Assembly (NCBI GenBank): GCA_903875605.1 | Contig: CAIQWT010000031.1 | Span: 1 to 59,119, forward strand | Direction: 5' to 3' | DNA length: 59,119 nt | Source of the DNA: an uncultured Geobacteraceae bacterium | Lineage (GTDB): Bacteria > Desulfobacterota > Desulfuromonadia > Geobacterales > Pseudopelobacteraceae | Part shown: piece by piece, positions 42,141 through 59,119 of the stretch | Layout: each line of letters opens with the position of its first letter | Position numbering within the stretch: position 1 is the first letter of the stretch | Notes under the pieces: model-generated | Seen by the model: only the letters and a program-made list of their open reading frames with translations | What the model was told of the DNA's origin: nothing | Database searches by the model: none | Made by a program: the position numbers and the translations under genes

Positions 42141-42209
42141 ATGTTCAGTTTGTTGAAATGTATATGTTAAAAAGCAAGTAATCTCAGGATATTGAAAGGA
42201 GTGGACACA

Positions 42210-43763
42210 ATGGGAAAAGCCGCTAAAAAAGATGACAGGAAGATAATCAGAATTTTTGACACGACGCTGAGGGATGGTGAGCAGGCCCCTGGCAACAGTA
42301 TGAACATTGAGGAAAAGCTGCGCATTGCCCGGCAACTACAGAAACTCAATGTCGATGTCATCGAAGCCGGTTTTCCGATTGCATCCGAGGGTGATTTTGA
42401 GGCTGTCAAAAAAATTGCACAGACGATCAAAGGCCCTGAAATCGCCGGGTTGTGCCGTTCCAGTGAGAAAGATATCGATCGTGCCTGGGATGCTCTGAAA
42501 TACGCCGGTGAGAAAGGTCGCATTCATACATTCATCGCAACCTCTGACATCCATATGAAATACAAACTGCAGATGGAGCCGGCTAAGGTTCTTGCTTCGG
42601 CAGTTAAGGCCGTCAAGCGCGCCGCTTCATACACTGCTAATGTTGAGTTTTCCTGTGAGGATGCCGTTCGCACCCGTTTGCCATTTCTTGCTGAAGTTGT
42701 CGAGGCCGTTATTGCAGCTGGCGCAACAACTGTCAATATTCCGGATACAGTCGGCTATACAATCCCTTTTGAATATTTCAATATCATAAAATACCTCAAA
42801 GACAATGTGCCTAATATCGATAAGGCGATCATCTCTGTGCACTGTCATAACGATCTGGGGCTGTCGGTAGCGAACTCTATAGCGGCCATACAGGCCGGCG
42901 CGGGCCAGGTAGAGTGTACGATCAATGGCATTGGTGAGCGGGCGGGAAACTGTTCACTGGAAGAGTTTGTCATGATTCTAAAAACCCGTGGTGATATTCT
43001 CCCATTTGCAACCAATGTTGTAACTGAACAGCTAACACCTTCCAGTCGTTTACTGACTGCCGTTACCGGTATTGCCGTGCAGCCTAATAAATCGATCGTC
43101 GGTGCAAACGCTTTTGCACATGAAGCAGGCATCCACCAACACGGAATGCTGATGGAAAAAACCACATACGAAATAATGACTCCCGAATCAGTCGGTCTTC
43201 TGGCAAGTGCCCTGGTTCTTGGCAAACATTCCGGCCGTCATGCTTTCAAAAAGCGCCTTGAAGAGTTGGGACACGACCTTGATGATGTAAAACTCAATCG
43301 TGCCTTTGATCGCTTCAAGGATTTGGCCGATCTGAAAAAAGAGGTTTTTGATGAAGATTTGGACGCAATTGTCACTGATGAGGCCAGAGAAGAAGATCAC
43401 TACAAACTGGACCATGTTACTGTTACCTGCGGTTCTTTTGCTGTTGCAACAGCAACCGTTCAGATGGAAATAAACGGTGTTACAGTTCGAACAGCAGAGC
43501 TGGGAGACGGTCCGGTAGACTCTACGTTCAAGGCGATTAAAAAGTTGACCAAGTCAAAGTCCAAGCTGACGCAGTATAACGTCGGCTCCATTACTGGTGG
43601 TACAGACGCGCAGGGTGAAGTGACCGTGCGGGTAACCGAAGGGAGTCATAGCGTTGTTGGGAAGGGGGCCTCAACCGATATTATTGTTGCCTCGGCGAAA
43701 GCATATATCCATGCTCTCAACCGGTTGAATAATAAACAAAAACGGTTGATTGAAGCGGTATGA
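42210..43763 (+). CDS. leuA: 2-Isopropylmalate synthase
   Basis: LeuA condenses acetyl-CoA with 2-oxoisovalerate, the first committed step of leucine synthesis. FDTTLRDGEQAPG carries the catalytic Arg/Asp, SVHCHNDLGLSVAN gives the metal-binding His pair, and NGIGERAGNCSLEE follows; these fit LeuA rather than citramalate synthase. The C-terminal 120 residues form the leucine-feedback regulatory domain. The ATG at 42210 has AAAGGAG eight bases before it (517 residues); an upstream TTG at 42192 is less likely. Regulation is by the T-box just upstream. No other leu genes follow. Confidence 0.94.
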   Translation: MGKAAKKDDRKIIRIFDTTLRDGEQAPGNSMNIEEKLRIARQLQKLNVDVIEAGFPIASEGDFEAVKKIAQTIKGPEIAGLCRSSEKDIDRAWDALKYAGEKGRIHTFIATSDIHMKYKLQMEPAKVLASAVKAVKRAASYTANVEFSCEDAVRTRLPFLAEVVEAVIAAGATTVNIPDTVGYTIPFEYFNIIKYLKDNVPNIDKAIISVHCHNDLGLSVANSIAAIQAGAGQVECTINGIGERAGNCSLEEFVMILKTRGDILPFATNVVTEQLTPSSRLLTAVTGIAVQPNKSIVGANAFAHEAGIHQHGMLMEKTTYEIMTPESVGLLASALVLGKHSGRHAFKKRLEELGHDLDDVKLNRAFDRFKDLADLKKEVFDEDLDAIVTDEAREEDHYKLDHVTVTCGSFAVATATVQMEINGVTVRTAELGDGPVDSTFKAIKKLTKSKSKLTQYNVGSITGGTDAQGEVTVRVTEGSHSVVGKGASTDIIVASAKAYIHALNRLNNKQKRLIEAV

Positions 43764-43844
43764 TTACTTTGCATTAAATTCTGGATGTACCGTAATGCAC
43801 ATCAAAAACCATTTTATAAAAAATCAGGGGCTAAAAAAACAGGC

Positions 43845-43873
43845 TTGACATACTGTTATAAAAAAATATATAC
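43845..43873 (+). promoter_or_regulatory. Sigma-70-type promoter of the cytochrome locus
   Basis: TTGACA (43845-43850) and TATATA (43867-43872) with a 16-base spacer precede the riboswitch by about 30 bases. No other promoter of similar quality lies between here and the first gene. Confidence 0.65.
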
Positions 43874-43902
43874 ACGTAATATAGTACAGAAACAAACCAC
43901 AC

Positions 43903-43985
43903 ATACACGATAATACTAAACCATTCGCGAGGATGGGGCGGAAAGCCTAATGGGTCTCATTGAGACAGCCGGGTTGCCGAAATGA
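43903..43985 (+). ncRNA. GEMM-I cyclic-dinucleotide riboswitch, probably cGAMP type
   Basis: The aptamer contains the invariant blocks of GEMM-I: ACTAAACC, a P2 hairpin (CCATTCGCGAGGATGG), GGCGGAAAGCC, a P3 arm (GGGTCTC ... GAGACAGCC), and GGGTTGCC at 43971-43978. By hand alignment to the V. cholerae Vc2 aptamer, the base matching G20 (which contacts c-di-GMP) is A here, as in the GEMM-Ib class that prefers 3',3'-cGAMP and is found mainly in Geobacter. An expression platform terminator follows and shares the 3' strand of the aptamer, predicting an ON switch. Confidence 0.88.
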
Positions 43986-44011
43986 AAATTTATGGCAACC
44001 CGTTTTTTTTT
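43970..44011 (+). terminator. Riboswitch expression-platform terminator
   Basis: CGGGTTGCC (43970-43978), part of the aptamer's 3' strand, pairs with GGCAACCCG (43994-44002), followed by nine T. Ligand-stabilised aptamer would occupy the first strand and prevent termination. Confidence 0.9.
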
Positions 44012-44122
44012 GTAATGAACAGGACAAACAAGATATTTGTGGTCTTTTGTCGTGAATCGTTTTAGAATGGCCTCGCTTTAATGAGTGATATTACGGTTTT
44101 ATTTTTGTACAGGAGTCATCAC

Positions 44123-45442
44123 ATGAAGAAAACGTGTTGCACACTGCTATGCGCAGCATCAATTTTCGCGTCACCATGCGTAACTTTGGCCGCTGACGTC
44201 ACCATTGACTCCACTACTATGCTTGGCATTGCGAAGCGGGATATTTCCGGCTCATCGAAAGAAACTATTATACCAGCTACGCAGTTTCTTGGTTTGACCG
44301 CCGACAAAATGGCTGACGGTAACCTTTCGCTCCACCTGTATGGGTGGGGGCGGTCTGATCTGGCCGACAACAGCTATAACAATGATAAAAATGCAGGTAG
44401 CCTCACCTACGGCTACCTACAATATCGTTTTAACCACGCCAACGCCAACGTCCGCACTGGTCGGTTCTTTGTCCGCGAGGGTGTTGTCAACGAGCAGATT
44501 GATGGTGTCAGTGCCCGTACTGATCTACCAATGGGTTTTGGCCTGTCGGTATTTGGTGGTGCAACGGTACATACAGCTCATCTGAGTGGCGAAACCAGTG
44601 ATGGCAAAGGGGATACTCTCTATGGCGGTCGCGCCAATTTCCGCTACAATGGATTACTTGAAATTGGTCTTTCAGGGGTCTACGAAAGCGCTGCTCCGAT
44701 TCTTAAAACACTTCATGCCGCTGGAGATTACCGCCGGGTAGGAGGCGATATCTGGGTCACTCCAATAAAAACAATCGATATCGTCGGACATAGCAGTTAT
44801 AACCCGGAAACCCAGCAGTTTGCCGAACACTCATATCTGTTTAATCTCAAGGCGACTCAAAAACTTGTTTTGACAGGAGAGTTCAATCGTCACTTTGAAC
44901 AAAGTTACCTGTTCCCCAGGACCACGTTCTCAGCCACACTTCTCAACCCCAACGACAAATCAAGTTCTGCTGGGGGGAGTACCTCCTACGAAATAAGCAA
45001 AAACGTCGAAATATCCGGTGATTACAAACATTACACCCGTGAGTTTGGTTCTGCCGACCGTTTTGGCGGAGAAACACGTGTCAACTATAAAGACAATTCC
45101 GTACGCGGCGGCATTGGTTATCACTACCTTAATGCCGGACAAGGATTTGCCATCACTCCTTACACCTCAGCCTCCTACCATGAACTGCGTTGTTTTGCCA
45201 TGCATGATTCTAAAAGCTACTTTGCTGCGGTCGATCTCCTGGGCAACTTTTTTAAAGAAAAAATCTACAATCAAAGCAGCGCCTGGGAGGCTACCACAAC
45301 TATCGGCTATCACTTCACTCCCGCTCTGGCACTTTCAGGAGACCTCACTTATGGCAGAAACCCCCAATTTACCGAAGAGGCCAAAGCGCTTCTCCGCTTG
45401 ACCTACAATATGACTTACCCCGGTACCGGAGGGAAAAAATGA
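44123..45442 (+). CDS. Outer-membrane beta-barrel protein of the cytochrome cluster
   Basis: From the ATG at 44123 (CAGGAG before it) the product is 439 residues. A signal peptide (KKTCCTLLCAASIFASPCVTLAA) precedes a long run of alternating strands such as GNLSLHLYGWGRSDL, YGYLQYRFNHANANVRTGRFFV, ANFRYNGLLEIGLSGVYE and TTIGYHFTPALALSGDLTYG, typical of a 16-20-strand barrel. No haem motifs are present. Geobacter porin-cytochrome conduits consist of a barrel with periplasmic and surface cytochromes; this gene, first behind a riboswitch and overlapping a cytochrome gene, is the likely porin. It is not one of the MtrB-type sequences I could name. Confidence 0.78.
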   Translation: MKKTCCTLLCAASIFASPCVTLAADVTIDSTTMLGIAKRDISGSSKETIIPATQFLGLTADKMADGNLSLHLYGWGRSDLADNSYNNDKNAGSLTYGYLQYRFNHANANVRTGRFFVREGVVNEQIDGVSARTDLPMGFGLSVFGGATVHTAHLSGETSDGKGDTLYGGRANFRYNGLLEIGLSGVYESAAPILKTLHAAGDYRRVGGDIWVTPIKTIDIVGHSSYNPETQQFAEHSYLFNLKATQKLVLTGEFNRHFEQSYLFPRTTFSATLLNPNDKSSSAGGSTSYEISKNVEISGDYKHYTREFGSADRFGGETRVNYKDNSVRGGIGYHYLNAGQGFAITPYTSASYHELRCFAMHDSKSYFAAVDLLGNFFKEKIYNQSSAWEATTTIGYHFTPALALSGDLTYGRNPQFTEEAKALLRLTYNMTYPGTGGKK

Positions 45443-45915
45443 AAAACGAAAAAATGATGTTCCCGCTTATGGCAGTGGTCGGACTCTTTGTCATTGTCGC
45501 CTCCTGTGCCCAGATGAAAACGATTCCCGGTCTCCCCGCATCGCATCCTGAAGCGCTAGCCGTTGGTCAGCAGGTAAACTGTGCCGAATGTCATGAAGAT
45601 CAGCAAAAGGGCACCATGAAGGCGTTCAATGCCTTCAGTCACACGCGTGCTTTCGTCAAAACTCATCGCTTCTATGCCGCATCGGATGATCGTCTCTGTT
45701 CAACTTGCCATAAAAGCTCCTTCTGTAATGACTGCCACACCAATAAGACCGAAATAAAACCATCAAGTCGCTATGGCGACCGGCCTGACCGCGAATTTCA
45801 GCATCGCGGCAACTTCATGACGATGCACAAGATCGAAGGAAAACTGGATCCAGCCAGTTGCTACCGCTGCCATGGCAGAGCCAATAACGGCCGCTGCGTC
45901 GCATGCCACAGATAG
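45439..45915 (+). CDS. Pentahaem c-type cytochrome lipoprotein
   Basis: This 158-residue protein has a signal peptide with lipobox IVASC and five CXXCH motifs: CAECH, CSTCH, CNDCH, CYRCH and CVACH, with additional His residues for axial ligation. Its ATG overlaps the end of the porin gene (ATGA), so the two are translationally coupled. It is expected to sit on the outer membrane (inner or outer face) and to pass electrons to or from the barrel complex. Five haems over about 120 residues is a compact wire. Confidence 0.9.
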   Translation: MKNEKMMFPLMAVVGLFVIVASCAQMKTIPGLPASHPEALAVGQQVNCAECHEDQQKGTMKAFNAFSHTRAFVKTHRFYAASDDRLCSTCHKSSFCNDCHTNKTEIKPSSRYGDRPDREFQHRGNFMTMHKIEGKLDPASCYRCHGRANNGRCVACHR

Positions 45916-45926
45916 GAGATATGGAC

Positions 45927-47111
45927 ATGCACCTTTTTCGCTATCTGCCTCTATTAATATGTATTTCACTTGTTAGCGGGTGCGGGAAGATCAATGAAAA
46001 CGCCCCAGCTCTCGGATCCACAGCCAAGCACCCCATAGATTGGATCTCGGCTCATCGCGGTGAGTACATTAAATCTCCTGATCAGTGCCGCAGCTGTCAC
46101 GGTAATGAACTAACCGGTGGTATTACAAAAATAGACTGTTTCAATCAGGCCGGTTTAAGTCAATGTCACGCCGATGGTCATGGCCCGCGCCCGACCGGCC
46201 ATTCTCTGCCATTCAAGGATCCTGCTCTTCACGGAACCCTGGCGAAGAAGGATCTTCTTTTCTGTCAGGCGTGTCACGGTGATTCCGGTGGTGCCGGGAG
46301 TAACCCCTCCTTTAACATATCTATAGGCTCCCTGCCGACAGGGTGCGAAGCGTCCGGCTGTCATCTGGTAACCATGGCACATCCAAAACCGTGGAAAAGT
46401 CACGGAAGCTCCGGCAATTTCGTCAATGCCTGTGCACTGTGCCATGGTTCAGCGTTTGGTGGCGGGCACGGCCCTGCCTGTAGCTCATGTCACAAGCTGC
46501 TTGTGGCCGGAATCATTCCTGTTTTCGGTCAATGTGTTTCTTGCCACGGGAATCCACCTAATGGTCTAGCGGCACCGAATCGTGCCGGTTCTCATGCTGT
46601 CCATCTTGCGCTTACAGGGGTGTCAGGCAACTGTTCTGTCTGCCATAATGGTGGTGGTAGCGGCGGGGTAAACCACGGATCTGCCTTAACTACGGCCTTT
46701 GCTGCCAATATCACCACAAATTCGGGTACAGCCTCATTTAATGGGACCTCATGTGCCAATATATCCTGCCACGGTGGCCAAACAACACCGATCTGGGGCG
46801 GAAGTCTGACGGTACTCTCCAACTGTACAAAATGCCATCAGTCGGGCGCTTCAGAGTACACCGGCTATTATTCCGGGCAGCATACAAAACATCTGAACAC
46901 AGGAATCGCCTGTACAGATTGTCATGATATGTCAAATACCTCAGCTCATTTCGGCAACGTTACCACGAAGCTTTTTGAAACCCAGCCGTACTCAACATTG
47001 CGCAGTTATCTTAGTTACAACCAGTCAGCCCAGAGCTGCACTGTAAGTAATCCGCCGCCTCAGGGCGTGCAGTTCACCGGTTGCCACAGCGGGTCTAAAA
47101 ACTGGAAATAA
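45927..47111 (+). CDS. Multihaem c-type cytochrome lipoprotein
   Basis: I take the ATG at 45927 (eight bases after GGAG); two other in-frame ATGs (45903, 45921) lie inside or against the ribosome binding site. The 394-residue product has a signal peptide with lipobox LVSGC. It has eight CXXCH motifs (CRSCH, CQACH, CALCH, CSSCH, CVSCH, CSVCH, CTKCH, CTDCH) and two CX4CH (CEASGCH, CANISCH). Two further CH dipeptides have a more distant upstream Cys: CFNQAGLSQCH (CX8CH) and CTVSNPPPQGVQFTGCH (CX14CH). So 10 haems are likely and up to 12 possible. It follows the pentahaem gene and is probably the surface or periplasmic partner of the same complex. Confidence 0.88.
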   Translation: MHLFRYLPLLICISLVSGCGKINENAPALGSTAKHPIDWISAHRGEYIKSPDQCRSCHGNELTGGITKIDCFNQAGLSQCHADGHGPRPTGHSLPFKDPALHGTLAKKDLLFCQACHGDSGGAGSNPSFNISIGSLPTGCEASGCHLVTMAHPKPWKSHGSSGNFVNACALCHGSAFGGGHGPACSSCHKLLVAGIIPVFGQCVSCHGNPPNGLAAPNRAGSHAVHLALTGVSGNCSVCHNGGGSGGVNHGSALTTAFAANITTNSGTASFNGTSCANISCHGGQTTPIWGGSLTVLSNCTKCHQSGASEYTGYYSGQHTKHLNTGIACTDCHDMSNTSAHFGNVTTKLFETQPYSTLRSYLSYNQSAQSCTVSNPPPQGVQFTGCHSGSKNWK

Positions 47112-47169
47112 GTGTGGAAGTGAATAGTACATTAAGCAGACGCTGTTCCGTTCCCGGAGAGGAAATTTT

Positions 47170-49776
47170 ATGACCAATCATGTTGGACGATTTATATGTT
47201 GCTCAACGCTCTTGATTTTCAGCTTGCTACTGAATGCCGGCCCGGCGTTCCCGGCAATAGCACCGGATGTTACCTCGCTCTCGTCCATTTCGGCATCTCT
47301 CAGCACGCCGGTACGATTGGCAGCCGATATTTCAGGATCTCTGTATGTCAGCGACCCTCGAAGTAGAGGTATAGTAAAATTTGCCAGTGATGGTAGTCAT
47401 GCCGCTACGATTCCTGTCGGTACCGGTATTCTTGGTGTCGCCGTTACGGCAACTGGAGAGATACTTGTCTGTCAGGGAACTTCTGTCGCGGTTTATTCTT
47501 CAACGGGAACTAAGCTGAAAGAATTCGGTACGTTCACCAAGGCAAACGGGATATCAATAACAAAAAACGGCGTAATATTTGTTGTCGACAGCCTCAGCAA
47601 CAGCATTCAGGCATTTAATGCCTCAGATTATTCACCGCATAAAATTGGCGCCTCAAACAGCTTTGGTACTGCAGGAACCGCCTCCGGCCAGTTTAGGCAA
47701 CCGACCGGAATTGCATACGAAAAAGTCGCAGATCAGATCGCTGTAGTGGATACGCGTAACGGCAGAATCCAGTTTTTCTCGACAACAGGTGTCTATCAAA
47801 AAAGTATCGGCTCCTTTGGTGCCGGGCCGCTTAAATTTACCTCTCCACAGTCCGTTTCCTTTGAGTACAGCACCGATCAGACGGTATTGAAGAGAATCTA
47901 TGTTGTCGACTCATTCCAGAGTACAATTCAGGTAATTGATGCTGCTACCAGCGAGTTTGTTCGCTATATCGGCGGATACGGCGTTACCGACGGTAAGCTG
48001 GTGACTCCGTCGGACATCCTCTTTGATAAAAACAGTCGTCTCGTGGTGGCAAACGGTACCGGCAAGCTGTCGCTCTTTGGTGTCGCCGATCCCTCTCTTG
48101 GCCCGTTCCTGCAGATAGACACGGTGCCGCAGGCAACCAACCTGACTACGCTGACAATTACGGGAACAACTACCGGTACAGCGGTGTCAATTAATGGTGT
48201 CCCCGGCACTCTTGTCGGTACTGTCTGGAGCGGAAACGTCAGTCTTACTCCGGGTGTGAATCCGGTTACTGTTGTTGCTTCTGATGCAAAAGGCTCAACA
48301 TCCCGGATGTTAACTGTTACAGCGCTTGCGCCTGCTGTTAATCCTGTGAGTTTAACCGTAACACCTGTTGCCACGCAGACATCACAATCAGCTTTGACAC
48401 TCTCAGGAACGGTTACTGAAGGGGCCAGCGTAACTGTTAATGGTGCGGCAGCTCTTGTCACCGGCGCAGCCTGGAGCATGAAAATAAATTTGAGCACCGG
48501 CTTGAATACTCTCCGGATTATCGCCAGCAAAGCCGGGATGGGCAACAGTACTGCCGATGTGTCGGTCGTTCTCGATGCCAGCACGCCTGTTATTGCTACA
48601 CGCCTGCCATCACCAGGAAGCGTTTTCAGCACACCGCTGCAGACTCTTTCGGGTACTGTCAGCTCGTCAAATGCCACAACGATTATTGTAACCGTAAACG
48701 GAACGAGTCAAACTTCGCCTGTCAGTGACGGTATCTTTTTCGTGCCGGTTGTGCTCGCACTTGGTAACAACAATATTTCCATCGTGGGCGTAGACTCTTT
48801 TGGTGCGACTACTCAGGCTTTGGCAAGTTCTGTGTCCTATAATCCACAAACACCGAAGGTAATTATTGCTACTCCTGCTGCCGCTGTAAGCGGGACAGCG
48901 ACCTATCGCCTTGAAGGTACGGCGCCCTCTGGCAGCAGTGTGACTATAAACGGTGCTGCTGCCGTGCTCAGCGGGGTAGGTTGGAGTGCGGATGTACAGC
49001 TGTCCCCCGGCGTTAATAACTTTGAGGTCAAAGCGAGCCAGGCTTCCGGAGTATCAACCACGGCTGTCACAGCCGTGGCATATTCTCCCGGCCTGCCTTC
49101 ACTTTCTATCACCTCTCCGGCAAAGGATTCTCCTGTCGCGACTTCTTACAATAACGTGTCCGGTACAGCTTCTCCCAGTGCTATCGTAAGCGCACGGGTT
49201 AATGATGTCCCGGCATCGGTTACCACATCTGCATCAGGTTCCTTCTCAATTGCCATCCCCACGTTGACAACTCCCGGAACATATACGGTTACCGTGAGCG
49301 TCACCGATGCTACCGGTGCTACTTCAACCAGTTCAAGATCGATCCTTTATGACCCGAATTCTCCGGTGATTAACAGCGTTACGACATCTCCAATAAAGGT
49401 CACTGCTCCAGGCGGGGTGTTGGTTGCCAAAGACAAAAATGGAGCGGTAGGGGCTTCGACGGTTACGAACGGTATCGCAACACTTGACTTGACTGGAGTA
49501 AGCTACGATCCGGCGACACTTAATATTCAGGCTCTTTCTCCTGCAGGCTCGAGCAGCAGGAACGGTGATCTTAACGGAGATGGAAAGCTGGATATTGCCG
49601 ATGCGTTGCTGGCGTTGCGTGTGCTTGTTGGGCTTGAACCAGAATTATCAGCGCAGCAGTTGCTTCGTGGCGATGTTGGGCCAATTACCAATGGTGAACC
49701 CACCGTTGATGGGCAGATAAAAATGTCTGATATAGTCGTTATTATGGAAAAAATAATCGGGTTGTCGACGTGGTGA
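47170..49776 (+). CDS. Secreted NHL-repeat / Ig-like protein with C-terminal dockerin
   Basis: The 868-residue protein begins with a signal peptide (LLIFSLLLNAGPAFP). An NHL-type beta-propeller (about 45-310, units such as GQFRQPTGIAYEKV, IAVVDTRNGRIQFFS and IYVVDSFQSTIQVID) comes next. About five bacterial Ig-like repeats (about 325-780, each with a GTxxxGxxVxVNG core and LxxGxNxxxV) follow. The end (about 790-868) is a type I dockerin: NGDLNGDGKLDIADALLALRV gives one Ca-binding loop and helix, and VDGQIKMSDIVVIMEKIIG the second. It contains no haem motifs. It is likely extracellular; the dockerin could attach it to the cohesin-like lipoprotein encoded next. GAGGAAAT precedes the ATG. Confidence 0.85.
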   Translation: MTNHVGRFICCSTLLIFSLLLNAGPAFPAIAPDVTSLSSISASLSTPVRLAADISGSLYVSDPRSRGIVKFASDGSHAATIPVGTGILGVAVTATGEILVCQGTSVAVYSSTGTKLKEFGTFTKANGISITKNGVIFVVDSLSNSIQAFNASDYSPHKIGASNSFGTAGTASGQFRQPTGIAYEKVADQIAVVDTRNGRIQFFSTTGVYQKSIGSFGAGPLKFTSPQSVSFEYSTDQTVLKRIYVVDSFQSTIQVIDAATSEFVRYIGGYGVTDGKLVTPSDILFDKNSRLVVANGTGKLSLFGVADPSLGPFLQIDTVPQATNLTTLTITGTTTGTAVSINGVPGTLVGTVWSGNVSLTPGVNPVTVVASDAKGSTSRMLTVTALAPAVNPVSLTVTPVATQTSQSALTLSGTVTEGASVTVNGAAALVTGAAWSMKINLSTGLNTLRIIASKAGMGNSTADVSVVLDASTPVIATRLPSPGSVFSTPLQTLSGTVSSSNATTIIVTVNGTSQTSPVSDGIFFVPVVLALGNNNISIVGVDSFGATTQALASSVSYNPQTPKVIIATPAAAVSGTATYRLEGTAPSGSSVTINGAAAVLSGVGWSADVQLSPGVNNFEVKASQASGVSTTAVTAVAYSPGLPSLSITSPAKDSPVATSYNNVSGTASPSAIVSARVNDVPASVTTSASGSFSIAIPTLTTPGTYTVTVSVTDATGATSTSSRSILYDPNSPVINSVTTSPIKVTAPGGVLVAKDKNGAVGASTVTNGIATLDLTGVSYDPATLNIQALSPAGSSSRNGDLNGDGKLDIADALLALRVLVGLEPELSAQQLLRGDVGPITNGEPTVDGQIKMSDIVVIMEKIIGLSTW

Positions 49777-49808
49777 CAAAAGCCGTAAATGCCGGTATCG
49801 GAGTTTCT

Positions 49809-50309
49809 ATGAAAATTATATGCTTATGCATGACACTGATGGGACTGCTTGTCCTTCAGGCGTGTGGAGGTGGTGCCGTAGATGGGAGTACCGTCGCCCG
49901 CCCACAGAAAACGGCCATCGTAGAATTTGCAGTATCTGCCGCAGATGCAACATCAATAGTTAAAGGTGTCACAATGGTAGTTAGGCTGCCACCTGGAGTG
50001 ACTGTCTCCACTGAAGCGGGAAGCACTATAATAAACGCCGCAGTGTTACAAGGTGTTAACTCCTTTCAGATACTCACATCTAATTATTTGGTGGCAGATA
50101 ATGAAGTAAGAATTCCTGCAATCAATATTTCCAATACAATTGAGAATATTGTCTTTGCAAGGCTTACCTGTAATGTCGTGTCCGGGCAAACGTTGATGGA
50201 ATCCCAATTTACTTCGCTTGTGCCGGTTCTATTTGATCCTAGTGGGGCCGGTGGTCAAGATCTTAAGAACAGTGTCAACCCTAAAATTTCGGTCACTTTT
50301 GGATACTGA
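49809..50309 (+). CDS. Cohesin-like lipoprotein
   Basis: I take the ATG at 49809 (CGGAG before it) as the start, giving 166 residues; a GTG at 49770 overlapping the upstream gene's end is in frame but would precede the signal peptide by 13 residues. A signal peptide with lipobox VLQAC (Cys near 19) precedes a beta-sandwich-like region: TAIVEFAVSAAD, VKGVTMVVRLPPGVTVS, SFQILTSNYLVADNEVRIPA and IVFARLTCNVVSGQ. The strand order and the VRLPPGVTV element resemble Geobacter cohesin-like domains. The dockerin protein directly upstream supports this. I cannot exclude another Ig-type fold. Confidence 0.6.
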   Translation: MKIICLCMTLMGLLVLQACGGGAVDGSTVARPQKTAIVEFAVSAADATSIVKGVTMVVRLPPGVTVSTEAGSTIINAAVLQGVNSFQILTSNYLVADNEVRIPAINISNTIENIVFARLTCNVVSGQTLMESQFTSLVPVLFDPSGAGGQDLKNSVNPKISVTFGY

Positions 50310-50375
50310 AGTTAATGAAGTTGAGTTCTACTTAAACACGAACAAAAAGTTGTTTATGCTGTCCAGGAGTGAATT

Positions 50376-53300
50376 ATGAAGAGATCTATATTTATGGCTC
50401 TGGTTATTATGGTTCAAGCCATGCTGCTGACGGTTGGTGCGTTTGCTGCAGTAACGGTGTCTCCTCCACATTCTGACGAGACATCAGGCTTTGTATGCAC
50501 CACCTGCCATACCACTCATCTGACTCTTGGCAGCACAGGCTACAATAATGTATGCCAGAACTGCCACCGCCCCGGTGACCCTGCCGCCGGCAGTAAGCCG
50601 ATTACTTTGGCCGATGCAGCAAACCCTTTTGGCAGCCACTCAAGTACCGGGCTTTCAAGAATGTATCAGACCTCGCATCGCTGGGATGGTTCTGATACAA
50701 ATCCCGCAGCTGGCGCTCAGCGGCCACTTCAGGCCCAGATGACGACAAACAATCTTCGTGCCCGTACTGATGGCCAACTCGCCTGTGTCCGTTGTCACAA
50801 TCAGCATGACAACAGCAACGGCAGTTTCTTGCGAATGGCCAACGATCAGGACCAACTATGTATGGATTGTCACCGTACTCGTAATGTTCAAACTCACACC
50901 AGTGGAAGTCATCCTGTCGGTGTCCCTTTTAATGCCTCGAAAAACGGTTTTAAAGCTATTCCTGCCAATAGCACCAATCCCACTGCTGATCTTAATAATA
51001 ATCTTAAAAACGGTAATGTTTCCTGTTCCACCTGCCATGGTGTCCACTTCTCCGATTCCCGCAGCAGCACGGTTGACGACAGTGCACATTTTGCCAACCT
51101 CAGCAGCGGGGATGGTTTTATCTTGAGAACTGACCGGCGTGGTGTTGACCCCGGTGCCCGCAATGACAGTCCCAATATCTGTTCCTCCTGTCACGCCGGG
51201 AAAAAGAGTCATAACATGGCTGGACAGGATGTTCAGTGCGCTGATTGCCACGGTGCTCATGTCGAATATGATCCAAATGATTTGAACGGTAGCAAGGGAA
51301 CCAATATTTATCTGATTCGCCGCAATCTTGTCGCCAAAGACGGCAAACCAACTTTGAAAGGCGGTAAGTTGAATCAGGTGTTCTTCCGTTATACCGGCTC
51401 GCAGAAAGAGTATACAAATGCCCAGGGAACCGGAGTCTGTCAAGGGTGCCACGCTGTTCCGGCTCCGGACAATGTTTTCGGCTATCCACCTGAGCACGCG
51501 AGCAGTGATCCGAAAGTATGTAATACCTGCCATTTCCACAACAGCACTAATGGCTCGTTCTCCGGAGCATGCACAACCTGCCATGGCTATCCGCCTTCAA
51601 CCGCCAACGGTCTGGTAGGCTATGCCCGTCCCGAGGATGCAAAAACCGGTGCCACGCAGGACAGTCCCGGTGCCCACGTAACGCATGCAACCGGTCGCTA
51701 TATGGCTTGCAATACATGCCACACCGGTTATGCCGGAAAAACAATGCCAAGTAATACCATTGATATTGGTTTCGCGATTAACGGCAGTAACTTCAGAGGG
51801 TTCGCCGGGAATGTCGCCGGGGGGGGCTTTAATGGTACTACCCTGAACAGTGGCTACAGCTGGAGTAACGGCAGTAATACGACTCTTACGACAGGTAACA
51901 GTTCGATTACCTGCAGCAACTATTGTCATGGTTCAACACTGACTGGCGGCACCATCACGAAGCCGACCTGGACGATAAGTGATGGAAGCCAGAAAACCTG
52001 CGGAACCTGCCACGGGGTGACTCCTGCAACAGCGCCGATTGCCGGCAGCCATACGCGCCATGCTGCTGTCAGTGCCATTCCCTGCGCATCATGTCATGGC
52101 GCACGATTGAATAACGACCATGTAAATGGTTCTGTAGAGTGGGATTTAGGAACCCTGTCCGGTGGGGCAACGTATAAAGGCTCAGTAAGCGGCAGTACAG
52201 GTGCTATTGCGCCGAGCGCCAGCTACGGCAGTTGCGCCAACGTATCTTGTCACAGTTCCGGCCAGGCCGCCGACGGCACAGCTGCACCACTCACCTACGG
52301 TACTCCTGTGTGGGGTGGCGCGCTTTCCTGCGGCGACTGCCATAAGAACATGAAGACAGATGTTACCGCACCCGGCAGTCACATAAAACACGCTCAGTCT
52401 GCCGGCATTGCCTGTGCAATCTGCCATAACGGCTATACTGAAACATCAACCAGTGCGACAACACACGGTGACGGCTCCGTCAACCTTGCTTTCAGTGGAA
52501 TAGCCGCAACTACCTCATATTCTCAGGGTGCAGCCCATACGCTCGGCAACGGCTATGGCACCTGCTCTACCGCCTATTGCCACAGCGCCGGGCAAAGCTC
52601 TACCGGTGGGGCACTTACCGCCGGAGACTATGCAACACCAGGGTGGGGCGGAGCAGCACTCGGCTGCGGCAGCTGTCACAAAAATATGGACAGCGACCCT
52701 GCCGCACCCGGCAGCCACGTGAAACATGCCCAGACGGCAGCGATTGCCTGTGCCGCCTGCCATGCCGGCTACACCGAAACAACAGTTGTCTCCTCAACTC
52801 ATGCCAACAAAAATATAGACCTTAGCTTTGCAGGTACAGCAGCAGGCACCGCATACGGTAAAGGAACCGGCTATGCTGCCGGCAGCAGCGTATATGCAAC
52901 ATGTACCACCAGCTACTGCCACAGCACCGGCCAGAGCCTGACCGGCAGCGGCACAACACCAGTCTGGGGCGGAGCAGCACTCGGCTGCGGCAGCTGTCAC
53001 GTTGATATGTCATCAAGCTCATCAGCAACCGGCAGCCATATCAAACACGCCAGAACCTATGGTATTTCCTGCGACGTATGCCACGGGACAGGTTATTCCG
53101 CAACATCAGTCGTGTATCCAGGCCATGTCAATAAAACAATCAATCTTGCCTCCGGCATCGGTTACAGCAATGGCGCAAGCTTTGTGCCCGGTACTTCCTA
53201 CGGAACATGCAGCACCACCACATGCCATAGCAACGGCACAACCACCGCCTGGGGATCCGGCCCGCTTCCCGCAGACTGCTCCGGCTGCCACGGCATCAAG

Positions 53301-56078
53301 CGCACCAGTATGACCAGCACCACACTATCGGGCAAGCACGACCGCCACCTCAATTACTCCACCAACACAGCACTGGGACGTGGTAACAGCCTCAACTGCA
53401 TCGACTGCCACGCCAAAACCGTCAGCAGCAACACAACAATCAGCGATCTTACGAAACATGTTAACGGCCTGGCCGACTACTCCGGCGCCAGAGCAGGTCG
53501 CAGCTACAACACAACAAGCAAAGCCTGCAGCAATCTCTACTGCCACTCAAACGGCAATCCGAACGCCATGGTATTCGTCAACATGACCGGTAGCAAATCC
53601 TGGAGTGGCAGTGGCTCACTGGGTTGTAACGGCTGTCACGGCAGAAGTAACGCACTCGGAACCCCCGACTACGCAAACGGCGGCGCCGGCACATCTACAT
53701 CCAACAGTCACCCCAATCATGTCGTTGCAGTTGGCGTAACAGACACCACCGGCTGTACCAACTGCCACGCCAAAACAGCAGACGCAACGGTCGCCGGTAA
53801 ATTCAAAGATTACTCCGCCAGCAGCTATCATATCAACGGTAAGCGCGATGTAGCCTTTAAGGCCATTGCCGGTAAAACCGGATCCTTTAACGGCACAACC
53901 TGTTCGGCAACTTATTGCCACGGCGCGGTCCCCTCTCCATCCTGGGGCTCTCCATCGCTTACATGCAACAGTTGTCACAGCGCCAACAGCGTGCTCCCTG
54001 GCGCCCATAAAATACACGTACAGACCACTGCCATAGCGAGCAGCTATCTGAATATGTCAGGTAACGTCAGCACCGCGGGCAGTTACCGCTTCAGCTGCGC
54101 TGCCTGCCACAGCACCACCGGAGGGGCCCGTCATTCAGATGGCCCTGCCAACAGCCTTGGTGCTGCAGAAGTATTCTTCGGCTTCACTTCAGCATCCATG
54201 AAAGGCAGCTACAGCTACGGAACCGCAGGTTCACCCACCGACAACGGCTTTGTCTGGTCAGGAGGCGGTGCCGGCTGCAACACAACCTACTGTCATAGCA
54301 ACGGCAACGGAGCCAACGGTTCAACAGTCGTTTCCTGGTCTACTACGAACAGCACCGGCAACTGTACACAATGCCATGGTGATGCCGCCACGCTGACCAC
54401 CGGTGCTCATGCAAAACACATTAATATCACAACCGGCAAAGGGCTTGGCTGCGTTGAGTGCCATGCAAAAACTGTCAGCAGTAACACGGTAATCAGTGAC
54501 AAAGCCAAACATGTCAATAAAGTAAAAGATGTCGGCTTTGCCAACTCCCCGGCAGCAACGTTTGCCTCAAGCAGTTGCGCCAATCTTTACTGTCATAGCA
54601 ATGGCACCAATCTGACAGGGCCATTTACCTCTGCATCTGTTGCTTGGAGTGCTGCTCCCGGATCTCTTGGTTGCAGTGGTTGCCATGACTCACCGCCAAA
54701 ATATGCCAAAGGTTTACCCAAGGCGAACAGTCATGATATCCATGCCGCTAATGGCTATTCATGCGACCTCTGTCACAGTACTGTAGTAAACGCGACGCCG
54801 GCGATTATAAACCAGACACTTCACGTCAACGGTGTTTATAATATTACCGCTGGCGGTGCAGTAACATTCACTCTTGGAAACGTACCAACTGCAACAACTG
54901 CAGCTCGCTGTTCAAACATATCGTGCCACGGCCCATCACCCAACGCTGCTACCTGGGGAGTCTCACTTGGCTGTCAGGCTTGCCATAGCGGAGCTGTCGA
55001 TGCAGATGTGTTTGTGGCTCCATTTAGTGCAGCAAGTCAGGTTTCGATAATTAATGATGCTGATTGGTTAACCACCGGTCATGGTCGCACTTCAGGCTCT
55101 TATGCGTCAGGGAATCCTGCAGCAAATCTGTCTGGTGCAAATGCTTGTCTCTATTGCCATGACAACAGCATAGGGCATAATGCGCTATCTAATCCATTCC
55201 GACTGCGTAGTTTTAGCGATGCAAGCTGGGGTAAAAACGGTGTGTGTATGGTGTGCCATGCTGCCGGATCAACCGGGGTTGTAGTTGATGGTGTCGCACG
55301 TAACGGTTCAAAAAAAGTTGCTTCCACCCATTATGGCTACAATCATACTGCTTCCAGAGATGCTGGCCAGTTCTGCTGGGATTGCCATGATGCCCACGGC
55401 GATGCGAACATCTATATGATCCATGATAATATTTATCGCACCTCAGACGTTGCTACAGGTGTACCTGTTGGCGTGCCATCAGGTACAGCTGCTCCGGTCG
55501 TATTTACTGCAGCTACGACCGGAACCGATTATGCGAAAAGCACTGCTCCTTTCACCGGAGTATGCAATGTGTGCCATACGGTTAACCAACATTACCGATC
55601 TGACTCCGGAGATGGCCACAATCAGAATACACGTTGTACCACCTGTCACTCGCACTCCGGGTCGGACCAGACCGCAGCATTTACACCCGTCGGATTATGC
55701 GACTCCTGTCACGGTTATCCGCCTGCTTCGCCAGGTTTCAAGGGCACGCAAAATAACTGGTCAACAGCTCGGATAGAAGATTATGCTGGTGCCGGTGGTG
55801 CGCATACAATCAATAATCATGTCAGTAAGACAGCAAAACCTTCAGAACAATTTGCTAACTGCACAAACTGCCACCGGCAGTCAGACCATATAATGGCGCC
55901 TACGGTGTTCCGCCCTTCCACAAATGTGAAGATTAGCGTAAATAGTCGTAAGGCATTCGTGCCGGGAGTATTGGCACGATACACATCAAACAGGAAAGAT
56001 GGTGCTGCTCATCTGGCAGGTAACTGTTCAAATATAAGCTGTCACTTTGGTGCATCACCCAGATGGGATCAGCAGTAA
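50376..56078 (+). CDS. Giant multihaem c-type cytochrome, 48 haem motifs
   Basis: This 1900-residue secreted protein has a signal peptide (cleavage probably after FAA, about 24) and by my count 48 putative haem motifs: 37 CXXCH, one CX3CH (CSNYCH) and ten CX4CH (such as CSTAYCH, CNTTYCH, CSNISCH). The first eleven are ordinary CXXCH motifs. The middle (about 500-1500) is built of repeats of about 75-105 residues, CX4CH - W-G-G/S turn - CXXCH - GSHxKH - CXXCH, which matches the Geobacter CX4CH/CXXCH repeat family. The last third returns to CXXCH with DAHG and GYPP segments. The role is extracellular or outer-surface electron transfer. A segment of about 52200-54500 uses more C-ending codons than its flanks. 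Confidence 0.93.
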   Translation: MKRSIFMALVIMVQAMLLTVGAFAAVTVSPPHSDETSGFVCTTCHTTHLTLGSTGYNNVCQNCHRPGDPAAGSKPITLADAANPFGSHSSTGLSRMYQTSHRWDGSDTNPAAGAQRPLQAQMTTNNLRARTDGQLACVRCHNQHDNSNGSFLRMANDQDQLCMDCHRTRNVQTHTSGSHPVGVPFNASKNGFKAIPANSTNPTADLNNNLKNGNVSCSTCHGVHFSDSRSSTVDDSAHFANLSSGDGFILRTDRRGVDPGARNDSPNICSSCHAGKKSHNMAGQDVQCADCHGAHVEYDPNDLNGSKGTNIYLIRRNLVAKDGKPTLKGGKLNQVFFRYTGSQKEYTNAQGTGVCQGCHAVPAPDNVFGYPPEHASSDPKVCNTCHFHNSTNGSFSGACTTCHGYPPSTANGLVGYARPEDAKTGATQDSPGAHVTHATGRYMACNTCHTGYAGKTMPSNTIDIGFAINGSNFRGFAGNVAGGGFNGTTLNSGYSWSNGSNTTLTTGNSSITCSNYCHGSTLTGGTITKPTWTISDGSQKTCGTCHGVTPATAPIAGSHTRHAAVSAIPCASCHGARLNNDHVNGSVEWDLGTLSGGATYKGSVSGSTGAIAPSASYGSCANVSCHSSGQAADGTAAPLTYGTPVWGGALSCGDCHKNMKTDVTAPGSHIKHAQSAGIACAICHNGYTETSTSATTHGDGSVNLAFSGIAATTSYSQGAAHTLGNGYGTCSTAYCHSAGQSSTGGALTAGDYATPGWGGAALGCGSCHKNMDSDPAAPGSHVKHAQTAAIACAACHAGYTETTVVSSTHANKNIDLSFAGTAAGTAYGKGTGYAAGSSVYATCTTSYCHSTGQSLTGSGTTPVWGGAALGCGSCHVDMSSSSSATGSHIKHARTYGISCDVCHGTGYSATSVVYPGHVNKTINLASGIGYSNGASFVPGTSYGTCSTTTCHSNGTTTAWGSGPLPADCSGCHGIKRTSMTSTTLSGKHDRHLNYSTNTALGRGNSLNCIDCHAKTVSSNTTISDLTKHVNGLADYSGARAGRSYNTTSKACSNLYCHSNGNPNAMVFVNMTGSKSWSGSGSLGCNGCHGRSNALGTPDYANGGAGTSTSNSHPNHVVAVGVTDTTGCTNCHAKTADATVAGKFKDYSASSYHINGKRDVAFKAIAGKTGSFNGTTCSATYCHGAVPSPSWGSPSLTCNSCHSANSVLPGAHKIHVQTTAIASSYLNMSGNVSTAGSYRFSCAACHSTTGGARHSDGPANSLGAAEVFFGFTSASMKGSYSYGTAGSPTDNGFVWSGGGAGCNTTYCHSNGNGANGSTVVSWSTTNSTGNCTQCHGDAATLTTGAHAKHINITTGKGLGCVECHAKTVSSNTVISDKAKHVNKVKDVGFANSPAATFASSSCANLYCHSNGTNLTGPFTSASVAWSAAPGSLGCSGCHDSPPKYAKGLPKANSHDIHAANGYSCDLCHSTVVNATPAIINQTLHVNGVYNITAGGAVTFTLGNVPTATTAARCSNISCHGPSPNAATWGVSLGCQACHSGAVDADVFVAPFSAASQVSIINDADWLTTGHGRTSGSYASGNPAANLSGANACLYCHDNSIGHNALSNPFRLRSFSDASWGKNGVCMVCHAAGSTGVVVDGVARNGSKKVASTHYGYNHTASRDAGQFCWDCHDAHGDANIYMIHDNIYRTSDVATGVPVGVPSGTAAPVVFTAATTGTDYAKSTAPFTGVCNVCHTVNQHYRSDSGDGHNQNTRCTTCHSHSGSDQTAAFTPVGLCDSCHGYPPASPGFKGTQNNWSTARIEDYAGAGGAHTINNHVSKTAKPSEQFANCTNCHRQSDHIMAPTVFRPSTNVKISVNSRKAFVPGVLARYTSNRKDGAAHLAGNCSNISCHFGASPRWDQQ
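52644..53000 (+). repeat. 36-base exact repeat inside the giant cytochrome gene
   Basis: The same 36 bases, encoding a WGGAALGCGSCH segment, occur at 52644-52679 and 52965-53000, 321 bases apart. They mark the core of the duplicated three-motif module. Confidence 0.85.
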
Positions 56079-56155
56079 CGCAACAATACAGAGAAGAAAG
56101 TCACGTCCATCATGGCACGTATAACAGTAGCACTTCTATGAAGAAGGAGTAGACA

Positions 56156-59119
56156 ATGGGAATTATCAGCGCACATATGACGAGGTATTCGCTCCTGATA
56201 ACAGGATTCTTTATGCTTGCGATGCCCCTGTACAGTGCCGGTATTGCCAGCGCCGGTACAGTTATCAAACAATGTAACGACTGCCATGGTATGCCGCCGA
56301 CCGATGCTCCACGGAAAGGTAACCCCCATTTTCAATCGTATTCGAGCGCCGTTACCGGTAACCACCAGACACATCTGTCCGCAACTCCGACTGCAGGTAA
56401 CTGCTCAATCTGTCACGCGCCGATTGCTGCTAATGCCTATAATCATCAGAATGATCAAATCAATATGGCAGGTAATGGTTCTATAAAAGGCGGAACATAT
56501 ACAAAGGGGGTGTTTTTTAACCAGACATCAATACCTGTATTAACCAACGCAACCTGCTCATCAGTCAGTTGTCATTTTGAAAAAGTGACCCCGGTCTGGG
56601 GCACTAACTCCGCTGCTACAACCTGCGCTATATGTCACGATGCCTCACCGGTCACATTTGCTCATACGAAGCATCTTTCTACAAATTTAGCGACAATTAC
56701 GTGTGCGACGTGCCACTCAAATCATATAAACGAGTCAAAACCTTTTTCACATGCAACGAGTTCCGGAAGGGCAATAGGCGTGATTGTGGGAACATACGCC
56801 GGATCAAATAATCAATATATGCCAAGCCAGACAGGTCGAGTGGTAGGTAGCTGTTCGGCGACATACTGTCATAGCTATGGCAACTTTAATAACGCAGGTG
56901 CGGTTGTAGCACCGACTGTCTTTAAAACTATCGCCTGGAATGCCGCCGCTGTCAGTTGCTCTGAGTGTCATGGCGATGGTCTAGCAAACGGGAAAGCTCA
57001 TCCGGTCTATGCTAGTGGTGCTGCCGCCTCTGCCACAGCAAACAGTCACGTTAAGCACGTTGAGAGCAGTCTGCTTAGCTGTGACTACTGTCATAACACA
57101 ACTACCATCGACTCAACTATTCCGCCAACAACAGTTGTTGCCGGTGGGTTGCATCTGAACGGTGCTGATAATGTATCTTTTAAGTCAAACGGAGGTAAAA
57201 CCGGAACATATGTTGCTGCTACTAAAACATGTGCAACAACTTACTGCCACGGGACCTCTAATAGCCCCGCCTGGGGCGCTTCCAGCACTTGCGTAAGCTG
57301 TCATGATGCAACTAGTGCGCTAATGCTGCGTCACGATAAACACTACAATAGTGTTATCGTTCCGACAGTGCTTGCCGGCAGTGTCGATTCCCATACAAGC
57401 TCAGCCTATGTGTACTCTTGCCTTGCTTGTCATCCATCCAACCAACATGCAACCGGCCCTGCATCCACAGCCGTTCCGCTTCAGGATGCAGCCGTTGCCG
57501 GTACGAAGATTACCTCCTATAGCAAAGGTACCGGTATAACCACAGTTGACGCCAAAGGTTTTAACTACACAACTAACGGTACCTGTACTACTGTCTGCCA
57601 CACCCGTGACGGATTAACAGCCTCTTCCGCTGTGGTGTCACAGAACTGGGGCACCACAGCTACCGGTACGTGCGGTGTTTGTCACAGCAAGGCCGGCGAT
57701 TCGTCTCCGACATGGTCAACCCCTCACTCAAAACACATCAATTCATATTCTGCCAATACCAGTATCACCTGTGGCAGCTGCCATGTTGGTACTGCTGCTG
57801 GTAATGCAGCTTTGCAAGCGACATCTCAGGCGAGGAATCAGCACCCCAATGGTAATAAAGATCTTGCGATGGATACCTTTGCAACAGGCGGATCTGTTGT
57901 CATTAACGGTGCCCAAGGCGCTCAGACATGTGCCAATACCTACTGTCATAGTAACGGCACTATAGCCGCGGGTATACACGCTGCGCTACCTTGGTCCGGT
58001 ACTTTCTCCACTTGTGGCGAATGCCATGGCAATGCGACTTCACTTGTCACAGGAACCCATTCCAAACATCTTGCTGTTACCGGCATAACCTGCAACAGCT
58101 GTCATAACGCAACAGCTTCCAACAATACGACTATTAGTTCTGTTGCCAACCACGTAAACAAAAATATAACCATCAACTTTGCATCTGCAGCAGCGCCTGG
58201 CAGTGGAACTTATAACGGCCAGATTGCAGGTGGTTCCACGGTTTACCAGAAAGTACCCGGTACGGCTGTTGGGGGGTGTGCAATCAACACCTGCCACGGA
58301 ATCAGTGCAACGGTAACCTGGGGCGGGGCACTATGGTCCGCCACTGACCAGTGCGGTAAGTGTCACGGCAGCAACACAGCCGGTGCGATTACCCAGGCGG
58401 CTCCGTTTTACAGTACCTCCTACCCAGTAAAAGTAACTGTCAACACCGATGCCAAGGTCGGGGCGCATACGAATCATTTGACATCTGCTCATACGATTGC
58501 CAGTAACTCCGCCTGCACAGATTGTCATGCTACGGTAAATAATGTTAGCTCTACAAACCACATGAATGGCGCTACAGACTTCGCCTTCAGTACATTGGCA
58601 TCAATAGCCAGTGCCAAAGCCGGTGGTGTTGCAACATATACAGCGGCAACAGGTGTCTGTACAAATGTATATTGTCATGGTGCCGGTATGGATAGCAACG
58701 TTTCCAACAACCCCGCTACAAGGGTTGTTGCACCTGTCTGGGGAACCCCGTTTTTGGATGCAACTGCAATTACGGTCGGTAACGGTGTAAATACTCCAGG
58801 TACCGGTAACTGCTCGAAGTGTCATGGTTATCCGCCTATGACGTCAACACATGCCGGCCAGGCTGCAACCGCCTGCATAGGTTGTCATGATCATGTTAAT
58901 GCATCAGGCACCGGTTTTACCGACGTTACTAAACATATAAATGGTGTTGTTGATGCATCCGGCGGCAGCTGTCTAGGGTGCCATGCAAAGCAGCAGGGCG
59001 CTCGTATAAACGTTATGCAGCAGTTTACCAGCGCTCAAAACTCACACCACTATCAAAGCACTACCAACAAGATCAGCACGGTTACCTGCTACGCCTGTCA
59101 CTGGGAAGCGAACGCTGAC
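56156..59119 (+). CDS. Second giant multihaem cytochrome, incomplete at window end
   Basis: The frame opens at the ATG at 56156 (GAAGGAG before it) and remains open to the last base, 988 codons. A signal peptide (LLITGFFMLAMPLYSAGIASA) is followed by 25 putative haem motifs so far: 18 CXXCH, six CX4CH (CSSVSCH, CSATYCH, CATTYCH, CANTYCH, CAINTCH, CTNVYCH) and one CX3CH (CTTVCH). The alternation of CX4CH and CXXCH, with W-G turns and H-x-x-H spacers, is the same as in the preceding gene, so the two are paralogues. A 77-base gap separates them and they are probably cotranscribed. The stop codon lies beyond the window. Confidence 0.93.
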   Translation, partial: MGIISAHMTRYSLLITGFFMLAMPLYSAGIASAGTVIKQCNDCHGMPPTDAPRKGNPHFQSYSSAVTGNHQTHLSATPTAGNCSICHAPIAANAYNHQNDQINMAGNGSIKGGTYTKGVFFNQTSIPVLTNATCSSVSCHFEKVTPVWGTNSAATTCAICHDASPVTFAHTKHLSTNLATITCATCHSNHINESKPFSHATSSGRAIGVIVGTYAGSNNQYMPSQTGRVVGSCSATYCHSYGNFNNAGAVVAPTVFKTIAWNAAAVSCSECHGDGLANGKAHPVYASGAAASATANSHVKHVESSLLSCDYCHNTTTIDSTIPPTTVVAGGLHLNGADNVSFKSNGGKTGTYVAATKTCATTYCHGTSNSPAWGASSTCVSCHDATSALMLRHDKHYNSVIVPTVLAGSVDSHTSSAYVYSCLACHPSNQHATGPASTAVPLQDAAVAGTKITSYSKGTGITTVDAKGFNYTTNGTCTTVCHTRDGLTASSAVVSQNWGTTATGTCGVCHSKAGDSSPTWSTPHSKHINSYSANTSITCGSCHVGTAAGNAALQATSQARNQHPNGNKDLAMDTFATGGSVVINGAQGAQTCANTYCHSNGTIAAGIHAALPWSGTFSTCGECHGNATSLVTGTHSKHLAVTGITCNSCHNATASNNTTISSVANHVNKNITINFASAAAPGSGTYNGQIAGGSTVYQKVPGTAVGGCAINTCHGISATVTWGGALWSATDQCGKCHGSNTAGAITQAAPFYSTSYPVKVTVNTDAKVGAHTNHLTSAHTIASNSACTDCHATVNNVSSTNHMNGATDFAFSTLASIASAKAGGVATYTAATGVCTNVYCHGAGMDSNVSNNPATRVVAPVWGTPFLDATAITVGNGVNTPGTGNCSKCHGYPPMTSTHAGQAATACIGCHDHVNASGTGFTDVTKHINGVVDASGGSCLGCHAKQQGARINVMQQFTSAQNSHHYQSTTNKISTVTCYACHWEANAD

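Follow-up and report, generated by a model that had tools for sequence, protein, structure and literature searches.

A predicted cGAMP-type riboswitch at the head of a candidate surface electron-transfer operon in an uncultured Geobacteraceae bacterium

We analysed a 59,119-base stretch of DNA from an uncultured Geobacteraceae bacterium (the window), which is one entire contig (C31) of a 3.58-Mb genome in 109 contigs, with a focus on a GEMM-I riboswitch aptamer that heads a run of seven forward-strand genes for an outer-membrane barrel, lipoproteins and giant multihaem cytochromes. The run begins with BAR, an outer-membrane β-barrel protein of 439 amino acids (aa; 44123–45442), whose most likely start is the ATG at 44123, with AGGAG 7 bases 5′ of it, rather than the earliest in-frame start at 44081. 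Next come L5H (45439–45915), a 5-haem lipoprotein of 158 aa with five CxxCH motifs and a lipobox-like VASC near its N terminus, and MHL (45903–47111), a multihaem lipoprotein with eight CxxCH and two CxxxxCH motifs, a lipobox-like VSGC and matches above cut-off to Pfam Cytochrome_C7 and Cytochrom_c3_2. DOC (47170–49776) is an 868-aa protein with an NHL propeller, an immunoglobulin-like Glucodextran_B domain and a dockerin-like C-terminal tail, the two Pfam families (NHL and Glucodextran_B) scoring over cut-off, and COH (49770–50309, likely start ATG 49812) is a small lipoprotein with a predicted cohesin fold. Two giant multihaem cytochromes that match NCBIfam GSu_C4xC__C2xCH close the run: MHC1 (50376–56078; 1,900 aa, E = 1e-81), with 37 CxxCH, one CxxxCH and ten CxxxxCH motifs, and MHC2 (56156–59119; E = 5.5e-42), with at least 25 motifs. 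Because the window is the whole contig, MHC2 is truncated and the sequence past 59119 lies outside our view. Adjacent open reading frames (ORFs) overlap by at most 13 bases or leave gaps of at most 77, so that the seven same-strand genes described in a first-pass annotation of this DNA are borne out by the ORF list, as is its tally of at least 88 haem motifs (5 in L5H, 10 in MHL, 48 in MHC1 and 25 in MHC2): our recount gives 68 CxxCH, 2 CxxxCH and 18 CxxxxCH, those other than CxxCH being putative haem sites.

The leader of this run contains the promoter, GEMM-I aptamer and overlapping terminator that had been annotated there. A σ70-like promoter (43845–43872) consists of TTGACA (43845–43850), a 16-nt spacer and TATATA (43867–43872), and matches σ70 at 10 of 12 positions, a score that 4% of shuffled versions of the 120 bases 5′ of the aptamer reach. 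The aptamer itself (43905–43981) matches the Rfam family c-di-GMP-I (RF01051) at 48.7 bits against a gathering score of 35 (E = 1.7e-6, window against 4,227 families), was recovered in a genome search and scores 71.5 bits with R1, our own GEMM-I model, which has the window among its 25 training sequences; an alignment with relatives places it in the A-type class (GEMM-Ib). Its 3′ strand overlaps the 5′ arm of an intrinsic terminator (43970–44011; ViennaRNA), in which CGGGTTGCC (43970–43978) pairs with GGCAACCCG (43994–44002), followed by nine T, in a hairpin of −19.6 kcal/mol. The strand at 43970–43978 is used by both structures, and the two folds are predicted to be mutually exclusive: the terminator hairpin is the predicted fold of the free leader, and blocking its 3′ arm lets the aptamer-side helix re-form (−22.0, compared with −37.1 unconstrained, for the stretch 43895–44012). 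The leader is thus predicted to be a transcriptional ON switch, in which ligand binding turns the genes on. A stock promoter and terminator scan of 43700–59119 on both strands was uninformative (24 promoter-like sites, compared with 15.6 expected, and 19 terminator-like sites, compared with 15.6); it lists neither the promoter, as it requires T at position 6 of the −10 element, nor the terminator, as its loop limit is 8.

We propose that a transcriptional ON riboswitch of the cGAMP type (GEMM-Ib) governs a surface electron-transfer operon in the window, a reading to which we assign a probability of roughly 80%. Without ligand, the nascent leader would form the hairpin at 43970–44011 and transcription would end some 110 bases short of the first gene. 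In the presence of 3′,3′-cyclic GMP–AMP (cGAMP), which the genome's own GacA-like and GGDDF Hypr cyclases would supply, the aptamer would hold the strand at 43970–43978 and block the terminator, so that the polymerase would read into the barrel, both lipoproteins, DOC, COH and the giant cytochromes. The elements of the leader, their predicted folds and their positions in related clusters underlie this proposal; the ligand, the read-through, the single transcript and the electron transfer are what we infer from them.

Comparison with related loci places the switch at more than one position. Counting distant paralogues, 91 of 117 genomes have a match to BAR (E ≤ 0.001), and 48 related-barrel loci come from Geobacteraceae, Desulfuromonadales and Deltaproteobacteria metagenome-assembled genomes and from Oryzomonas, Pelotalea, Geomonas and Geomesophilobacter. 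At the 30 best barrel loci, fetched one per genome with flanks of up to 1.5 kb, a GEMM-I riboswitch lies upstream of the barrel in four (the window and genomes G028, G036 and G025), and the fetched flanks of the other 26 showed none. We then used a model of 25 GEMM-I sequences and gene maps on 35 clusters, window included, that combine a DOC gene with sufficient sequence upstream; they are not an unbiased sample, having been chosen among the better barrel and dockerin-tail matches. A multihaem cytochrome is visible behind DOC in 33 of them, the contig ending earlier in L149 and L201. The set leaves out L127, L128 and L131, which lie close behind a contig end, L234 and L237, with no such giant cytochrome in view, L135, which has a riboswitch before the barrel and lacks the dockerin-tail block, and L204, a near-copy of L163 that was not counted; for the loci among L065–L094 that were not mapped as clusters, the riboswitch scan covered their flanks.

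GEMM-I riboswitches are present in 16 of the 35 clusters, at three positions. Four stand before BAR (the window, L129, L133 and L163), two, both tandem, before MHL (L162 and L243), and ten directly before DOC (L132, L141, L149, L150, L151, L152, L153, L154, L155 and L203), where those of L154 and L203 are tandem and L153 and L155 have no MHL upstream. Geomonas sp. Red32 is a cultured-genus example, with tandem A-type aptamers ahead of its dockerin-tail gene. At the specificity position, 15 of the 16 riboswitch-bearing clusters are of the A type, L163 having G. On a barrel tree of 51 sequences, the four head riboswitches of the A type (window, L129, L133 and L135) share a single 13-row clade with one before-DOC case (L149); the other colinear before-DOC cases fall outside it. 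In the 22 rows that enclose this clade, 10 of the 14 loci that have the DOC block carry a riboswitch, as against 1 of the 8 that lack it (P = 0.024, from a hand tally that ignores kinship). Among these rows, the riboswitch goes with the block of dockerin-tailed protein and giant cytochromes, not with the barrel alone. A switch directly before DOC, as in 10 of the 16 clusters, would control only DOC and the genes behind it. What such switches usually govern in this cluster is probably the exterior block, made up of DOC, COH and giant cytochromes. The head position may be a derived state; in the lineage of the window, the promoter–aptamer–terminator cassette stands upstream of the barrel and would bring the trans-membrane conduit under the switch as well. 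L235 and L238, from another family of the order, have DOC and giant cytochromes behind a 4-haem ORF and lack a same-strand barrel, a cohesin-fold gene and a riboswitch.

Several observations count against the proposed reading. No riboswitch was found in 19 of the 35 clusters, and the head position requires three changes on the barrel tree, a number as low in 53 of 500 shuffles, so that it does not cluster significantly. Within the genome of the window, a paralogous barrel-to-cytochrome operon (L125, contig C32:6001–26000) has no riboswitch that we could find; its barrel is 67% identical to that of the window, and a GGDEF gene with a canonical motif lies about 3 kb upstream. A TTG-16/18-TA...T element occurs 28–52 bases 5′ of BAR at 10 of the 14 loci without a head riboswitch (chance 2–8% each), a pattern that was chosen after the alignment and a consensus-score test had been seen. 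Among the four A-type head loci, this element is kept in L133 and L135, where its retention behind the terminator would allow bypass, and is absent from L129 and the window.

One alternative is that the riboswitch gives only an extra inducible transcript, the conduit being expressed mainly from promoters between terminator and barrel or inside the operon. Where no riboswitch stands at the head, the barrel must have a promoter in front of it, for which the element is a candidate; L133 and L135 keep that element behind their riboswitch, and the operon is more than 15 kb long; long operons commonly hold internal promoters. The promoter-like sites within genes in the stock scan (24, compared with 15.6 expected on both strands) point the same way. 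In the window, however, the element is missing, the best σ70-like match before the barrel reaches 8 of 12, which is the level of shuffles (P = 0.65), and the promoter ahead of the aptamer scores 10 of 12. A broad search for bypass promoters by consensus score had no power, because loci with no riboswitch at the head did not outscore shuffles. We also examined the 120 bases upstream of 16 riboswitches (those of the clusters above, minus L243 and plus L135): 12 have TTGACA as part of a pair that scores 10 of 12 or more, L129 has TTGACA in a pair scoring 9, and no convincing promoter was seen in those 120 bases for L153, L162 and L203. Promoter and switch thus usually travel together. As the pre-barrel element is missing in the window, its sequence makes control of the whole operon more likely there than bypass, and we regard a merely additional transcript as unlikely, if deserving of serious attention. 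The proposal that one messenger switches on a whole conduit stands in part, and comparison sharpens it: in the window all seven genes lie downstream of the switch and the bypass element is missing, which favours control of the whole operon there, whereas no riboswitch was seen in the flanks of 26 of the 30 barrel loci and 10 of the 16 riboswitch-bearing clusters have the switch directly before DOC.

We next consider whether the genes form a conduit at all. The AlphaFold2 model of BAR (mean predicted local distance difference test score 82.5) has 22 strands of at least 9 residues, and the 50 Foldseek matches listed are all outer-membrane barrel proteins, with E values down to 2.4e-10. A barrel is therefore present by its model, and haem motifs and lipobox-like N termini predict the redox lipoproteins. 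The architecture resembles, by description, the Ext conduits of Geobacter sulfurreducens (extEFG, extABCD and extHIJKL), which likewise combine a barrel with a pentahaem lipoprotein (ExtE/ExtF), with 21 strands predicted for ExtE and ExtI compared with 22 in the BAR model (passages of PMC6148476). It differs from them in lacking a clearly periplasmic cytochrome and in the giant cytochromes and dockerin/cohesin pair that follow. None of the seven genes clearly encodes a periplasmic multihaem cytochrome, the two small ones having lipobox-like N termini, although one may be encoded elsewhere; nor do BAR and MHC1 have sequence relatives in the PDB (E thresholds of 1 and 0.001). These absences would suit a barrel and lipoproteins with another surface role and giant cytochromes that store electrons. 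Opposed to such a role is the company that the barrel keeps: 21 of the 34 other clusters have a same-strand barrel upstream of DOC, and L5H is present in all 21. At loci without the DOC block, barrel and L5H are followed by a varying multihaem third gene, and Geobacter conduits are described as exchanging the outer-surface lipoprotein and keeping the other parts (Otero et al., PMC6148476). A role other than conduit is, on this evidence, improbable.

The sequence also points to the ligand. At the specificity position, 43915, the window aptamer has A when aligned with G-type and A-type relatives, reading ACUAAACC at the stretch where typical G-type relatives read GGCAAACC. By alignment, we take 43915 to be nucleotide 20 in the numbering of PMC6456294. 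In the Gmet_0970 riboswitch of Geobacter metallireducens, an A-to-G change there shifts selectivity from cGAMP to cyclic di-GMP (c-di-GMP) (PMC6456294). By this signature, the window aptamer seems to belong to the cGAMP subclass (GEMM-Ib), whose existence the first-pass annotation had noted. Five GEMM-I riboswitches were found in the genome, four of the A type and one of the G type; the other cGAMP-type riboswitches there are a tandem pair ahead of an RCC1-repeat protein (L146, contig C26) and a single one ahead of a 1,365-aa Big_7/GH16 protein (L147, contig C17). Candidate makers of the signal are also encoded. Among 21 GGDEF matches, the recognition motif is readable in 16 (unread in L223 and L229–L232), with the canonical Asp in 14 and Ser in two. 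The Ser-type L226 carries GGDEY, and its best solved relative is GmGacA (6d9m; E = 2.4e-63, compared with about 1e-42 for PleD); L233 carries GGDDF, the motif of the Hypr enzyme GSU1937, which is reported active in G. sulfurreducens (PMC8835794). With two Ser-type cyclases and A-type aptamers in one genome, predicted signal makers and receivers are both present.

The A-for-G rule is not absolute, and a c-di-GMP-sensing or dual-specificity aptamer, with the ON switch otherwise unchanged, has to be weighed against cGAMP. The Rfam family is named for c-di-GMP, the OmcST riboswitch of G. sulfurreducens is reportedly sensitive to the two dinucleotides alike (PMC6456294), and some predicted cGAMP-activated genes were up in a G. 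metallireducens strain with high c-di-GMP and lower cGAMP (PMC12285248). The relative L163 has a G-type riboswitch at the same place at the operon head, so that c-di-GMP may be the signal for the same operon in that relative; G occupies the specificity position of the riboswitches before the barrel at both L163:2434–2509 and L204:1632–1707. Set against this are the A type of the window and of 15 of 16 riboswitch-bearing clusters (window included) and the cGAMP cyclases (L226 and L233) that its genome appears to encode, and we consider sensing of c-di-GMP, alone or together with cGAMP, quite improbable in the window. A chance origin of the riboswitch was rejected on its covariance score and on counts, GEMM-I density in 58 genomes (2.95 per Mb) giving 0.0007 expected per 500 same-strand bases and 0.02 expected, compared with 4 observed, for the 30 barrel loci. 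For a phage-borne cassette, one exact degenerate pattern had no match in viral contigs, which is a weak test.

The fourth and fifth genes may add a means of attachment. Tested alone, the DOC tail, which starts at about 49537, reaches 19.1 bits against Pfam Dockerin_1 (E = 0.0016), under the cut-off of 22.9; its first calcium loop, DLNGDGKLDIADA, is canonical-looking and its second degenerate. In Pfam, the earlier label of dockerin is thus sub-threshold. The tail of the close relative L128 matched no Pfam family. COH adopts the cohesin β-sandwich fold in its predicted structure, the cohesin-fold domain being encoded at 49899–50306, which agrees with the earlier label 'cohesin-like', but it matches no Pfam family up to E = 10 and has no cohesin among its PDB sequence matches; in view of the missing sequence-profile match, we call it cohesin-fold and not a member of the cohesin family. 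The two genes are linked by adjacency: a cohesin-fold gene stands behind 23 of 30 dockerin-tailed proteins and behind none of 10 tail-less ones (42 proteins minus L075, interrupted by a stop, and L149, at a contig end), the 23 assignments coming from a profile retrained three times, whose first pass gave 22 matches among the candidate ORFs. These counts include eight tails mis-scored by a first regular expression (L074, L083, L084, L085, L087, L090, L125 and L203), which were reclassed, seven by tail BLAST and L125 by eye, with the neighbour column already visible. L150, L151, L152, L154, L141 and L153 lack both the dockerin tail on the propeller protein and the cohesin-fold gene.

Cohesin and dockerin domains are also reported from electron-transferring consortia of anaerobic methanotrophic (ANME) archaea and their sulfate-reducing partners, where passages of the two reports treat them as possible adhesins or linkers (PMC10553843, PMC9012536). 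The window differs from that case: there, a riboswitch precedes a single gene run that holds both genes together with a conduit barrel and giant cytochromes. The pair offers a hypothesis for how giant cytochromes lacking an evident anchor are held at the surface: lipid-anchored COH would hold the dockerin-tailed propeller protein and so tether them to the conduit. We tentatively extend this to a wider model, possible but doubtful as a whole, in which a portable cGAMP cassette at differing cluster boundaries sets an always-on conduit against switched exterior cytochromes, with a cohesin–dockerin lock between them. If true, the result would be an electron-transfer complex of cellulosome-like build under riboswitch control.

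Control of cytochrome operons by cGAMP is already established, so that no new kind of regulation is at issue here. Deletion of gacA in G. sulfurreducens lowered OmcAHG 16-fold, PgcA 10-fold and OmcST 2–3-fold (PMC6456294). Deletion of esnD is reported to raise the expression of cGAMP-riboswitch genes in that species. The annotation states that GEMM-I riboswitches often precede Geobacter cytochrome genes. The OmcAHG operon (GSU2885–GSU2882) has a cGAMP-type riboswitch ahead of outer-membrane cytochrome genes; compared on riboswitch and cytochromes, OmcAHG has tandem GEMM-Ib aptamers (PMC6456294), whereas the window has a single riboswitch, a barrel-first operon and the dockerin-tail/cohesin-fold pair. 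The pilM GEMM-Ib riboswitch of G. metallireducens is likewise described as an ON switch with mutually exclusive aptamer and terminator folds; it serves another operon, and its mechanism was measured (PMC9262584), whereas that of the window is predicted. We found no operon of this kind in the titles, abstracts and selected passages of the open-access literature that we searched. As far as that literature shows, three features are new: a cGAMP-type switch ahead of a conduit-type barrel, alternative switch positions within one gene cluster, and a cohesin-fold/dockerin-tail pair within an electron-transfer gene run. The position of the riboswitch may decide how much of the electron-export chain a second messenger commands, for which these clusters provide a testable case.

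On its upstream side, the barrel is adjoined by a LeuA-like gene preceded by a T-box leader (RF00230, 120.9 bits), together spanning 41899–43763, and this LeuA–barrel neighbourhood is found again in several relatives of the same genus.

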